From IMG/VR virus record IMGVR_UViG_3300033148_004419, positions 1 to 42,556 of that record: DNA of 42,556 nucleotides; one strand, written 5' to 3'. Both the position numbers and the translations under genes were made by a program. Shown piece after piece: positions 25,508 through 39,221 of this stretch (within the stretch, counting starts at the first letter, position 1; every line of letters starts with the position of its first letter). Below the pieces are notes generated by a model, which saw only the letters and a list, made by a program, of their open reading frames with translations, searched no databases and had not been told where the DNA came from. The DNA is from a virus.

Positions 25508-27189
25508 TTACGTATTCAGGGTTGTTCTTAGATTAATAACCCATGCATCGTTAGTGATGCGCGGCACCTGAGCCATCTTGTATCCAACACTAGCATTGAG
25601 AGCCAATGGACCATCATAGATAGGTGGACGATAGATGAACTGAGAGCTATAACCGTCTTGCTCGATGCAAGCGTAAGCTTCCATACCCGCAACAAATACA
25701 TTGTAAATGTTCGCTGATAATAGAGAGGCTGTTGTGGTTACAGAACCTATTGAGGATAACACGAATCGAAGATTCGATACTGAACCCCATTCAGGTCTTA
25801 ATGTGTCACCTTGAGCTGGATAATTTGCCTTGGCAGTAAAGCCAGTAACAGATTCCAAGTCACCGATAAGCTGGGTGCTACCCATGGCGAAATAAGCATC
25901 ACGAACTGGTGCGGTTCCAAACTTGTCATCACCTTCAATATTGTCGGCAATCGTGTACGCATTAGCGTTAGCTAGCGCTCTGATTACTTCATCAATATCT
26001 TGACGAGTCATCTCAGTTGGGTTGTCACCATTGGTTCCATTAACACAGTTAATGAAAGCTGCGGTGGAACCGAGCATGTTGCGTATCAATTCATCTTCAG
26101 TCTGTCTTAATGAGACACCAAGTCGCTGAGCTGCTGAATTCAATACTGGATCTTGGTTCTGAAGCTGTACCTGTTCGTTGAGATATACATATGTCGGCTC
26201 TGTTACTTTCGGTCTCTCATAACCTACTGACCAAAGCTTTCGCTTTTGGCGGGGTTCCCTCTTCGGAGATCCCTCTCATAGTTTCCTATGAGGTCAGACT
26301 GTCGCTTATGCCGCTAGGCATCCACCTCGCTCAGTCGTTGCAGGTAGACTTAAATTACCATTCATGTTATCATACTCACCATGAAAGAGACTCTTACTGA
26401 TGTAGAATTCGCTTACATGGCTGGAATTATCGATGGTGAAGGCTGTCTTTCCATTTTTAAACTTGGAAAAGATTACAAAACAAGGCAACGAGACTATCTT
26501 GCGGCTAAACTTACAATCACAAATACTAGTCTTGTATTGCTTGATTGGATAGTTGAACGCTTTGGTGGCAAGATAGGAACGAGAACAAAAATCAAGAACA
26601 GAAAAACATGCTATTATTGGCATGCTCACGGTGATCGTCTTGATTTTATCCTTGAACATTGTACACCCTTTCTTACTGAAAAGAAAAATAGAGGAGAGGT
26701 CCTCAAGGAATTTAGAAAAACATTCGACAAGAAAAGATGGGTTTCTAAACCTACACCTTCCGAAATCCATGATCTTCGTCTTTCCTTTAAAAATAAACTT
26801 CACGAGTATAACCTTCTTGGTATTTAAGTCCTTCCTTCGGGTTGTCATAGGATTTCTCCCTTAGAGTTCCCCGTAATCAGAGGCGGTTTTACTACGGCAC
26901 ACTATGCAGCTTTTTGCTGCGCCCAACCGTAAAAATCAATGGTAGCATCTATATTAACCGCTCTTAGCTGCTGCGCTGGTGGTGTAATACCAGAATTCCC
27001 CAATGGAACAGTCGCAGTCGCAAGTGGATTGTACCTCAGCATACGCAAGGTTGTACCACCATTAGCTGGCATGTTCTTTCTCATGGCTGGGATGCCATGA
27101 ATCATATAGGGAGTTGGAACAGACAACAACTTGTAAGATAAACTTTGCTGCACTGGAGCTGGAAGCGTAGTGCTGGTTGTAATTGCCAT
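25508..27189 (-). CDS. Major capsid protein (N4-gp56 type), gene split by a group I intron
   Basis: Two exons on the minus strand: 27189-26926 (88 codons, ending IDFYG) and 26194-25508 (228 residues plus stop, starting TYVYLNEQVQLQNQ). Joined they give 316 residues in one frame. The sequence RYNPLATATVPLGNSGITP, then the exon junction VNIDATIDFYG-TYVYLN and QDPVLNSAAQRLG, fits the N4-gp56 major capsid pattern, where homologues are uninterrupted at this place. Without splicing, the first exon reads seven extra codons to a TAG. The gene follows the scaffold gene by 30 bases. Splice sites are predicted from sequence only. Confidence 0.82.
26195..26925 (-). ncRNA. Group I intron in the capsid gene (731 nt)
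   Basis: P1: exon bases TACGGT (26931-26926) pair with internal guide GCCGTA (26898-26893), leaving a U-G pair at the 5' splice site; a GCAGC/GCTGC hairpin lies inside. P3: CCGCCTC (26886-26880) with GAGGTGG (26328-26322). P4: CGGG/CCCG around the GGGGAACTCTAAGGG core. P7: GACTG (26336-26332) with CAGTC (26301-26297). P8: ATGCC/GGCAT. P9: CTCATAG-GAAA-CTATGAG (26292-26275), and another GAAA-capped helix follows. The intron ends in G. All core helices of a self-splicing intron are present. Confidence 0.88.
26381..26827 (+). CDS. LAGLIDADG homing endonuclease, antisense to its host intron
   Basis: 148 residues with one LAGLIDADG motif, YMAGIIDGEGCL (residues 12-23), as in homodimeric enzymes of this size. 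These enzymes cut intronless alleles to spread their intron. The gene is on the plus strand while the intron and capsid gene are on the minus strand, so it needs its own transcript. I see no Shine-Dalgarno before the ATG. The stop codon lies at the edge of the intron core, so the gene fills a peripheral loop without breaking core helices. Confidence 0.85.
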   Translation: MKETLTDVEFAYMAGIIDGEGCLSIFKLGKDYKTRQRDYLAAKLTITNTSLVLLDWIVERFGGKIGTRTKIKNRKTCYYWHAHGDRLDFILEHCTPFLTEKKNRGEVLKEFRKTFDKKRWVSKPTPSEIHDLRLSFKNKLHEYNLLGI

Positions 27190-32559: not shown

Positions 32560-32934
32560 TTAAGACCCTGTGCCGTGCTTTGGTTCATCTTTGACAAAAG
32601 ATACACCTGGCCCCTTGTTCGTCGAATATGAGCCATCTGACAGCGTATGGCGCGTCCTTGCAACCAGAGTATCTTCGTCAACGACGTAGAAGTTCTGGGT
32701 CTTTGCGATGTCGTAGTCCTGAATCTCTTCTCTAATGAACCGAATGAACTTCGGGTCTACGTCTTCGAACTCAAGCGCCTGGGCTTCCACAATAAACTCG
32801 TCACCATCCTCATCAAAAAGCAGAAGGTGTCCCTCTTTTTTAATAGAATTCCAGGTATCAATATCAGCATAAACATTCCTCTCAAAACGCATAGCATCAA
32901 AATCATCATCACCTGGTATATAAATAATCTTCAT
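32560..32934 (-). CDS. Acidic protein, 124 aa, next to the RNA ligase
   Basis: Strongly acidic with beta/alpha alternation (MKIIYIPGDDDFDAMRFERN, then LLLFDEDGDEFIVEAQALEF). Not recognised. Coupled by ATGA to the RNA ligase gene, so it could be a partner or regulator of that enzyme; this is only a positional guess. Confidence 0.65.
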   Translation of the reverse strand: MKIIYIPGDDDFDAMRFERNVYADIDTWNSIKKEGHLLLFDEDGDEFIVEAQALEFEDVDPKFIRFIREEIQDYDIAKTQNFYVVDEDTLVARTRHTLSDGSYSTNKGPGVSFVKDEPKHGTGS

Positions 32935-33626
32935 CTGAAATCCTTCACCTTCAATTTGAATTTAAGGGGAGTGCCGTTTCGAAAGCGTAATAGCGGTTCT
33001 GTTTTTGCGACAACACCTTCCATCACGTGTTCTTCTTCAGCAAAGAGCGACAATGGCTTGCTTTTGACAAAATCAACAATTTCGTCTGTTGTGAATGAGA
33101 ATATGGAATCACTATATCCATTAAAAACTAACGGCGCACAAGGGATTCCAAGATCATCAGCCATATCTTCAATAACTTTATGTTCCATCCACCATACCTT
33201 ATCAATATAGACATCAAAAAGACAGAAACGCTGCTCTTTTGAATAATATCCGCCACACTGAATCTTGGCACCATATCCCTCGCCAAACAACAAAACTTCC
33301 TCAGCGTCCTTAAAGACACTTTCCATCAATTCCAAGGTAAAGTGAGCCTGAAGATAAGATAATAGCTTAGGAGGGAGCATAGCGTTGTCTGTGCGACCTG
33401 CAAACGAGACCTGCGCTCCCTTTATATAATGAATGCGAATGTTCATGCCGTCGATCTTCTCTGTAATAATCCAGTTCTTGATGTTTGCGAACTCTGCACA
33501 AGCATAGTCACCTTCAATGAATTTCTGCCTGTTCTTTTGCATTGCTTGGGATGTGTTCTTTTTAAGATTTTCATCGTAATACCACCCCTCACGCTTCCAT
33601 AATGAATTCATCTTCGGATATTTCAT
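32931..33626 (-). CDS. RNA ligase (Rnl2-like nucleotidyltransferase)
   Basis: 231 residues with the ordered ligase motifs: I, EKIDG with catalytic Lys57; III, LLFGEGYG near 112-119; IIIa, FCLFDVYI near 134-141; IV, EGVVAK near 203-208; V, LKFKLKVKD near 221-229. These enzymes adenylate themselves and seal RNA nicks or join RNA ends. It lacks an obvious extra C-terminal domain and no polynucleotide kinase partner is visible. It could repair cleaved tRNA during infection; an intriguing but unproven link is the permuted tRNA-like sequence 4.4 kb away. Confidence 0.85.
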   Translation of the reverse strand: MKYPKMNSLWKREGWYYDENLKKNTSQAMQKNRQKFIEGDYACAEFANIKNWIITEKIDGMNIRIHYIKGAQVSFAGRTDNAMLPPKLLSYLQAHFTLELMESVFKDAEEVLLFGEGYGAKIQCGGYYSKEQRFCLFDVYIDKVWWMEHKVIEDMADDLGIPCAPLVFNGYSDSIFSFTTDEIVDFVKSKPLSLFAEEEHVMEGVVAKTEPLLRFRNGTPLKFKLKVKDFR

Positions 33627-37934: not shown

Positions 37935-39219
37935 TCAATATGGATCTCTAAAAAACGCGGGTAAGTTCATTTGCATTTGCATTCCCATTGCTTCATGGTA
38001 ACGCATGTCTAACTCCTCCGGTGTCGTCGCATTCAAACCTTGCTCAAACCAGAACATAGCTGCATAACGGTCCGCATCCATACAGTGATCGTTTGTTTTC
38101 TTTGGCTTCTCCTCTCCGAGTAACGCTGCTTTCTCGTCCCATACATATGTCTGCATCTCTTGCAACGTAACCTTGCATTGCTTGCATATCTTCAGCGCTC
38201 CAGTCGTCAATAACTGAGCGTAAAAACGTATACCGTCAAGCACATCGTTGTTGGCTTCCATTATGTTCATGATTCCTTGCTTGCGACACTCCGCTATGAA
38301 ACTCGCTGCCGATGGATCGATCAGTACTGCCTTGACGTTGTATCCATCACAGAACTGCACTAGATCTTGTGCGTACTCCTCGTCTGTCTTTTGCCTTAAC
38401 TTCTTCTTCGATGACCAGTAGTATTCCTTCTCTTTCCACATGTTAGGATACTTGTCGGGATTGTAGCCGAACAGACCAAACGCACATGGGTTCACGGTTC
38501 CATAATCAACACCTACAACATAATACTTGCCCCTGCTCTGTGGAAACGGTATGCAATGGATGTCCTCGTCGAAGAAGTCGTAAATCGTACCTTCAGCCAA
38601 TACCCAGTCGCCATCGATAAATCTGCGATACCACAGACCTCTATACTCCATCTTCAAATTATTCTTATAATCAGCAGTCAGACTCGGGTTGTCGTCAAGA
38701 ACAAATTTGAATCGCTTGAGATCTAACTCCTCGTGTCTGTCCATGTAATCAGTTTTCAACCAGTGGAAAGGACTGTCCGGGTTGGTCGTTAGAAACATCT
38801 TTGCACCTTCAACACTGAGACGTGACAATAACATCTTAAAGAAGTTCTCGGGTATCGTCGTGCCTTCGTCAACTAATGCACCTGCAAACGTACAACCCCT
38901 TATCTTACCTTCAGCACGATCATCGTTAGCTCCGATAACATGCACAACGCGACCCCATAAATGCAGCTCTCTGTTGCCTGAGAAGTACTGCATCTCTGCA
39001 CCTAATAACCGTGCTAACTCTGATATGATGTTTCTCTTTAATGAGTCTCCTGACTTGCCGATGATGCACATGTCGCCCTGAATGGACGAGGAAGCAAACT
39101 CGATGAACCTTAATAATGCGCTAAACGATTTACCAGAGCGGACCGCACCTTCCCAAAAGTTCAAACGCGCGTCTGATTGCCAAAGATTGCTTTTGCTTGT
39201 CCGATAACTCGTGTAGCAT
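37935..39219 (-). CDS. terL: Terminase large subunit, with an apparent +1 frameshift near the start
   Basis: The ATPase/nuclease that packages DNA. The main frame carries Walker A EGAVRSGKS, Walker B GALVDEG and the nuclease aspartates in VVGVDYG and AVLIDPSA, ending at 37935. It has no ATG upstream. The expected N-terminus (MLHELSDKQKQSLA) starts at ATG 39219, two bases after the terS stop, but in the other frame. Joining the frames near 39177 by skipping one base gives a 427-residue protein ending the motif as SDARLNFWEGAVRSGKS. The region is a real frameshift, a programmed event or a one-base sequence error. A TTG at 39164 is the only simple in-frame start and has no ribosome-binding site. 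Confidence 0.85.
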
Positions 39220-39221
39220 AA

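Follow-up and report, generated by a model that had tools for sequence, protein, structure and literature searches.

The N4-gp56-type major capsid gene in the window, the stretch of 42,556 nucleotides that makes up IMG/VR virus record IMGVR_UViG_3300033148_004419, is interrupted after codon 88, and the sequence evidence gives a probability of roughly 90% that the interrupting element is a mobile self-splicing group I intron. The gene (27189..25508, minus strand) is found in two pieces, separated by a 731-nt intron (26925..26195, minus strand) located between codons 88 and 89. Exon 1 (27189..26926, minus strand; 264 nt) holds codons 1–88, ends in FYG and covers positions 1–84 of the TIGR04387 profile. 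Exon 2 (26194..25508, minus strand; 687 nt) holds 228 codons and runs from TYVYLN to the stop. Joining the exons (88 + 228 codons) gives a protein of 316 amino acids followed by a stop codon. Residues 4–312 of this product score 138.6 bits against TIGR04387, the model for N4-gp56 family major capsid proteins (cut-off 60), and PHROG 1357 (major head protein) is matched as well. Exon 1 by itself scores 41.9 bits against TIGR04387.

The junction was mapped by dynamic-programming spliced alignment against a profile built from 70 uninterrupted capsids. With this capsid profile alone as input, the alignment placed a single 731-nt intron at codon 88/89, and imposing the group I rule (U as the last nucleotide of the exon, G as the last of the intron) caused zero loss of score. 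The exact junction and the protein frame are established by this alignment. An earlier sequence-only reading of the window had given the same coordinates, had stated that removal of 731 nt restores a 316-residue protein in frame, and had assigned the product to the N4-gp56 family; the spliced alignment and the TIGR04387 score bear this out. Its description of a group I intron holds with respect to core, junction and protein, but was incomplete, as it missed both the LAGLIDADG gene on the opposite strand of the intron and the status of the capsid gene as an intron hotspot. Intron-split genes of this kind explain why the capsids of such phages may be overlooked or annotated as fragments.

Two further genes in the window were noted. 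A predicted RNA ligase (phrog_548, 1e-23) is encoded at 32931–33626 on the minus strand. The terminase large subunit, also on the minus strand (39165–39221), is apparently frameshifted by one base near position 39165 (MLHELSDKQKQSLAIRRA, then LNFWEGAVRSGKS in the other frame). An intron was suspected here from the 57-nt gap between the open reading frames and was rejected, as the sequence rather resembles a frame change by one base, which appears to be either an assembly error or a programmed frameshift.

The elements P1 with its U-G pair, P3, P4, P7, P8 and a GAAA-capped P9, all named in the sequence-only reading, are present in the intron, and P10 (UGU/ACA) was located in addition. All of the following elements are on the minus strand. 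P1 (ACGGU/GCCGU) is formed by the 5' exon strand ACGGU (26926..26930), where U26926 makes the U.G pair, and the internal guide (26894..26901), consisting of the P10 strand UGU (26901–26899) and then the P1 strand GCCGU (26898–26894). The P10 partner is the 3' exon strand ACA (26192..26194). In relatives, the corresponding guide covaries with the exon. P3 pairs CCGCCUC (26880..26886) with GAGGUGG (26322..26328). P4 (CGGG/CCCG; 26870–26873 paired with 26838–26841) and the P5 region occupy 26838..26873, within a weak covariance model match (26812..26873), and were read by eye from A1. P7 (GACU/AGUC) has its 5' strand ACGACU at 26333..26338, aligned to the family core, and its 3' strand AGUCUGA at 26294..26300, giving the guanosine-binding helix. 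The P8 hairpin (AUGC/GCAU) is found at 26308..26322, the P9 hairpin with its GAAA cap at 26275..26292, and a P9.1-type hairpin that is conserved in the family at 26252..26273 (columns 227–248 of A1). The intron ends with the terminal guanosine (omega G) at 26195. An in-frame UAG (26902..26904), located seven codons downstream of the 5' splice site, probably prevents ribosomes from entering the core; a stop in the exon frame within 30 codons is found in 150 of 160 family introns.

An Rfam search of the window at gathering threshold gave no match, and RF00028 reached 18.8 bits on the window (cut-off 50). RF00028 also fails on the small gene-free relatives of the intron and is therefore insensitive to this intron lineage. 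As it misses most of the small introns of relatives, we built a family covariance model from 38 small gene-free introns of relatives, approximately 195–230 nt long, leaving out the window. RNAalifold predicted 31 pairs on these 38 introns, 27 of them with compensatory changes, which were read as P3, P4, P5, P6, P8 and a P9-type hairpin; the pseudoknotted P7 lies beyond what the model describes and was identified by visual inspection. A covariance model search had been proposed in the sequence-only reading as a way to check the intron, and the family model does match the window core (P3–P9, 3' half) with 51.5 bits and an E value of 2e-15. The P4–P6 half gave a weak match at the expected position (8.3 bits, E 0.13), partly because a nuclease gene occupies the P6 loop. 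The model also gave 32 matches in 17 other loci, two of which had supplied model sequences. The phage intron lineage of about 200 nt that RF00028 misses or under-scores (L112, L265, L140, L093, L118, L230 and others) is easily detected by the 38-sequence model.

The weak score of the 5' core half (P4–P6) is what would be expected if the intron were a decayed remnant that no longer splices, leaving a capsid gene that is either non-functional or active in the form of two separate polypeptides. We consider this extremely unlikely, since P1, P3, P7, P8, P9 and P10 are intact, the exons are in frame and conserved, the nuclease frame described below is under purifying selection, and a second capsid gene was not seen elsewhere in the window.

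The nuclease gene (26381..26827, plus strand) is antisense to the intron, lies in its P6 loop and encodes a LAGLIDADG homing endonuclease of 148 amino acids. The product has a single LAGLIDADG motif and matches PF00961 (LAGLIDADG_1; 28.9 bits, cut-off 23.1, 2e-6), phrog_5046 (1e-25) and I-MsoI (3e-7). Its closest relative, with 68% identity, is encoded in locus L081. The differences between the two genes are distributed 35/32/76 over the three codon positions, with dN 0.26 and dS 2.58 (dN/dS approximately 0.1), which shows that it is the protein encoded in the antisense frame on which purifying selection acts. A sense open reading frame of 180 amino acids (26848..26306, minus strand) was a candidate for the intron protein but was dismissed, as it has no family match and dN exceeds dS in that frame.

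The strand opposite the nuclease (26306–26848, minus strand) is open in the codon-aligned frame, and none of 17 leucine codons is TTA or CTA, compared to 35% in the other genes of the window. Such an open codon-aligned opposite frame was observed for 16 of 55 antisense nuclease genes versus none of 17 sense genes. Directly 5' of the endonuclease ATG is a promoter-like sequence, TAGACT-17-TATCAT with TG (26345..26373, plus strand), which is a weak match to the consensus; three promoter-like sites were found in the intron, where 1.5 are expected by chance. The location of the gene on the opposite strand makes expression possible independently of the late capsid transcript.

By analogy with known families of introns and nucleases, the LAGLIDADG protein would cut intron-less capsid genes at or near codon 88/89, and repair would then copy the intron into the cut gene. 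The window transcript would fold, exogenous guanosine would attack after U26926, and exon 1 would then attack after G26195, so that the capsid protein of 316 residues could be translated.

A DNA-level search of phage records with the window gave no match, and only three phage records, all distant, have a related capsid. The comparison with relatives was therefore drawn entirely from IMG/VR and two metagenome-assembled genomes (MAGs). The relatives are nearly all metagenome contigs, from which redundancy was removed solely by identity of the relevant stretch, and their splice sites were assigned by protein alignment together with the U/G rule. Of the 80 loci whose capsids are most similar to that of the window, six carry introns and 70 are intact. 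Intron-rich relatives were gathered by searching for the shared P3/P7 motif, giving a census of 160 distinct introns at approximately 35 sites in the capsid gene. Antisense LAGLIDADG genes are found in 55 of these and sense ones in 17; 64 have no gene, and 24 contain another or an unrecognisable open reading frame. Full introns at the same site as in the window were found in L047, L053 and L119, all with sense genes, whereas the window intron has an antisense gene. The core and nuclease of the window are nearest to those of the L081/L203 intron, which is inserted nine codons further downstream.

The two MAGs (L273 and L274), labelled Simkaniaceae and Parachlamydiaceae, contain capsid relatives with 78% and 69% identity, respectively; this may point to Chlamydiota as hosts or to misbinning of the contigs. 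At codon 144, the capsid gene of L274 is interrupted by an intron of 1130 nt. In Stenotrophomonas phage StenR_269 (L082; 3280–4741), a distantly related capsid gene is preceded at a distance of five bases, on the same strand, by a LAGLIDADG gene with the annotation 'intron homing endonuclease'.

Inspection of codon 88 in the relatives revealed a second type of insert. At this site, L081 carries 62 nt that resemble the 5' end of the site-88 intron without its core, followed by 26 nt of exon and a full intron at codon 97. A similar arrangement was seen in ten more relatives, and a pattern scan gave 69 stretches. L265 is a compact example, with a mini-intron of 28 nt, 26 nt of exon and a core intron of 199 nt. 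One candidate, in L270, was a chance pattern match with no capsid homolog, and L288, also considered as a carrier, holds no such insert. The inserts are 28–68 nt long, which is too short for a catalytic core of their own, so the core that defines a group I intron is absent. The other marks of group I introns are present, namely a P1/P10 guide and the U and G ends. P1 is ACGGU/GCCGU, always with the U.G pair (60 distinct cases), which is kept in the compensatory form UCGGU/GCCGA seen in the mini-introns of L110 and L181. P10 is AxGU, located directly 5' of the guide; its complementarity to ACyU of the 3' exon holds in 59 of the 60 cases, with all four Watson-Crick types represented. The U and G ends were imposed on the boundaries, at a cost of at most one score unit in nearly all loci and of five units in L217.

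Furthermore, the 3' part of each mini-intron forms a second helix of 8–13 bp with the exon. At fixed register 92.7% of its positions are paired, compared to 67.5% (maximum 74.4%) with shuffled partners and 30–59% when the register is slid. The lengths of the mini-introns are random modulo 3 and most cannot be read in frame, which requires that they are either taken out or bypassed. Skipping of the mini-exon was rejected, since a junction between codon 88 and the codon-97 acceptor would be out of frame. No description of such core-less mini-introns was found in the part of the literature that our search covered.

In the codon-97 loci, the second helix ends directly against the P1 of the following intron, 8 nt upstream of the 5' splice site. 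In L248, where the mini-intron is present and the codon-97 intron is missing, the helix partner is found 67 nt downstream, 8 nt before the next intron, at codon 116, and the predicted minimum-energy fold has both helices contiguous. The decisive test set consisted of mini-introns lacking the codon-97 intron, scanned without requiring any other intron. Every such mini-intron with enough sequence has a core-bearing intron next, at 104/0, 104/2 or 116/2, and the best helix is flush with the P1 of that intron in 24 out of 24 distinct cases (7–9 nt away in 23, 11 nt in one). Shuffled mini-intron segments were flush with the next P1 in 3 of 720 trials. Over all 79 distinct mini-intron loci with a core intron next, the single best helix lies 7–9 nt away in 71; in the remaining loci it mostly has an internal mismatch, and a shorter piece was chosen. 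The mean pairing probability in the predicted ensemble is 0.80 for the second helix and 0.87 for P1. As the helix tracks the next P1, the mini-intron appears to be built for docking beside whichever core follows.

This coupling bears on how the inserts might otherwise be handled. Their size (28–68 nt) and the hairpins flanking the gap are similar to those of translational bypassing elements in the style of T4 gene 60, which ribosomes skip without any splicing. Bypassing is nevertheless very unlikely, since the take-off codon GGU never equals the codon before landing (AAG, AUG, UUG and others), the invariant U.G pair, P10 guide and final G are marks of group I introns, and the second helix tracks the P1 of the next intron, which is present in unspliced RNA only. 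Removal by a protein system, such as an endonuclease and an RNA ligase, would agree with the predicted ligase gene in the window. We regard it as improbable, because a guide that aligns the exons and a coupling to the P1 of the next ribozyme would then be purposeless, and because the window has the ligase and no mini-intron.

We therefore suggest that the mini-introns are probably satellite group I introns, which have a guide and no core, are held by a covarying helix at the P1 of the full intron that follows, and are excised by the core of that intron in a set order. The coupling itself is seen in the covariation; that the next core performs the splicing, and in this order, is what we infer from it. 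The next intron's core would take the P1 of the mini-intron first, while the second helix and the next P1, stacked on one another, would serve as a P2-like spacer. Once the mini-intron is out, the second helix would fall apart, the next P1 would dock, and the core would splice its own intron. One ribozyme would in this way remove two introns in a set order. To our knowledge, no group I intron is known to splice a core-less neighbour.

Group I cores are able to accept a P1 helix in trans, and the downstream core could in principle splice the mini-intron after its own excision. The observed coupling to a downstream core fits this order of events too, yet we consider it rather unlikely. In all cases of the decisive test the flush helix abuts the P1 of a next intron that is still present, a contact that would be unneeded in trans, and this points to action in cis.

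Nine out of nine codon-97 introns in a sample not chosen for mini-introns have a codon-88 mini-intron, and the mini-intron, mini-exon and codon-97 intron may move as a single unit. Even smaller inserts were observed after codon 118, a known intron site, where L111 (9543–9568, plus strand) has a frame-breaking 5-nt insert, TAATG, and L212 (minus strand) a frame-breaking 4-nt insert, TATG. Both are preceded by U and end in G, and a complementary guide (CUGGCGGAGU / UUGGCGGAGU) is found in the exon, flush with the P1 of the next intron, at codon 144. It is possible that these 4–5-nt inserts are micro-introns with the guide in the exon. Beyond L111 and L212, a search for tiny inserts in the capsid gene gave just length variants that keep the frame and, in L016, one indel that resembles an assembly error.

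The nuclease of the window resembles the homodimeric enzymes I-CreI and I-MsoI in having a single LAGLIDADG motif and a length of about 150–170 amino acids. These two are encoded in introns of organelle rRNA genes, usually in sense orientation. T4 gene 60 is similar to the mini-intron loci in having a short non-coding gap within a phage gene, but its take-off and landing codons are matched and it has no link to a neighbouring ribozyme, whereas the codons flanking the mini-introns are unmatched.

The closest known system is the Cluster J mycobacteriophage LittleE, in which the major capsid gene contains a probable group I intron of approximately 820 nt that bears, on the bottom strand, a LAGLIDADG gene of the I-CreI type; splicing of the capsid gene was demonstrated by RT-PCR and by N-terminal sequencing that spanned the junction (PMC3706429). 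With this tested precedent, the architecture of the window intron, a major capsid gene intron with a LAGLIDADG gene on the opposite strand, is of an already known type. LittleE differs in having an HK97-type capsid, in belonging to another phage family and in its insertion site; furthermore, it has one intron and no mini-introns are described, in contrast to the hotspot and mini-introns among the window relatives (PMC3706429). The window intron represents a second phage lineage with a capsid intron of the LittleE type carrying a reversed LAGLIDADG gene. Capsid genes split by several group I introns, in one case into five pieces, have been reported for the Delta and Zeta crAss-like phages (PMC7886860). 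Antisense nucleases and core-less mini-introns, as found in the window relatives, are not mentioned for these crAss-like, large gut phages in the parts of that report available to us (PMC7886860). A nuclease gene on the strand opposite the ribozyme is also known from group I introns in the nuclear rDNA of Didymium (PMC9548176), but these are His-Cys nucleases located in P9, in ribosomal RNA genes of eukaryotes (PMC9548176). What the relatives of the window add to these systems is the suggestion that group I introns can shed their core entirely and subsist on that of a neighbour, retaining only a guide and a helix for docking. If true, this would be a natural system of one ribozyme and two introns, and a model for the dependence of an intron on a separate catalytic core.
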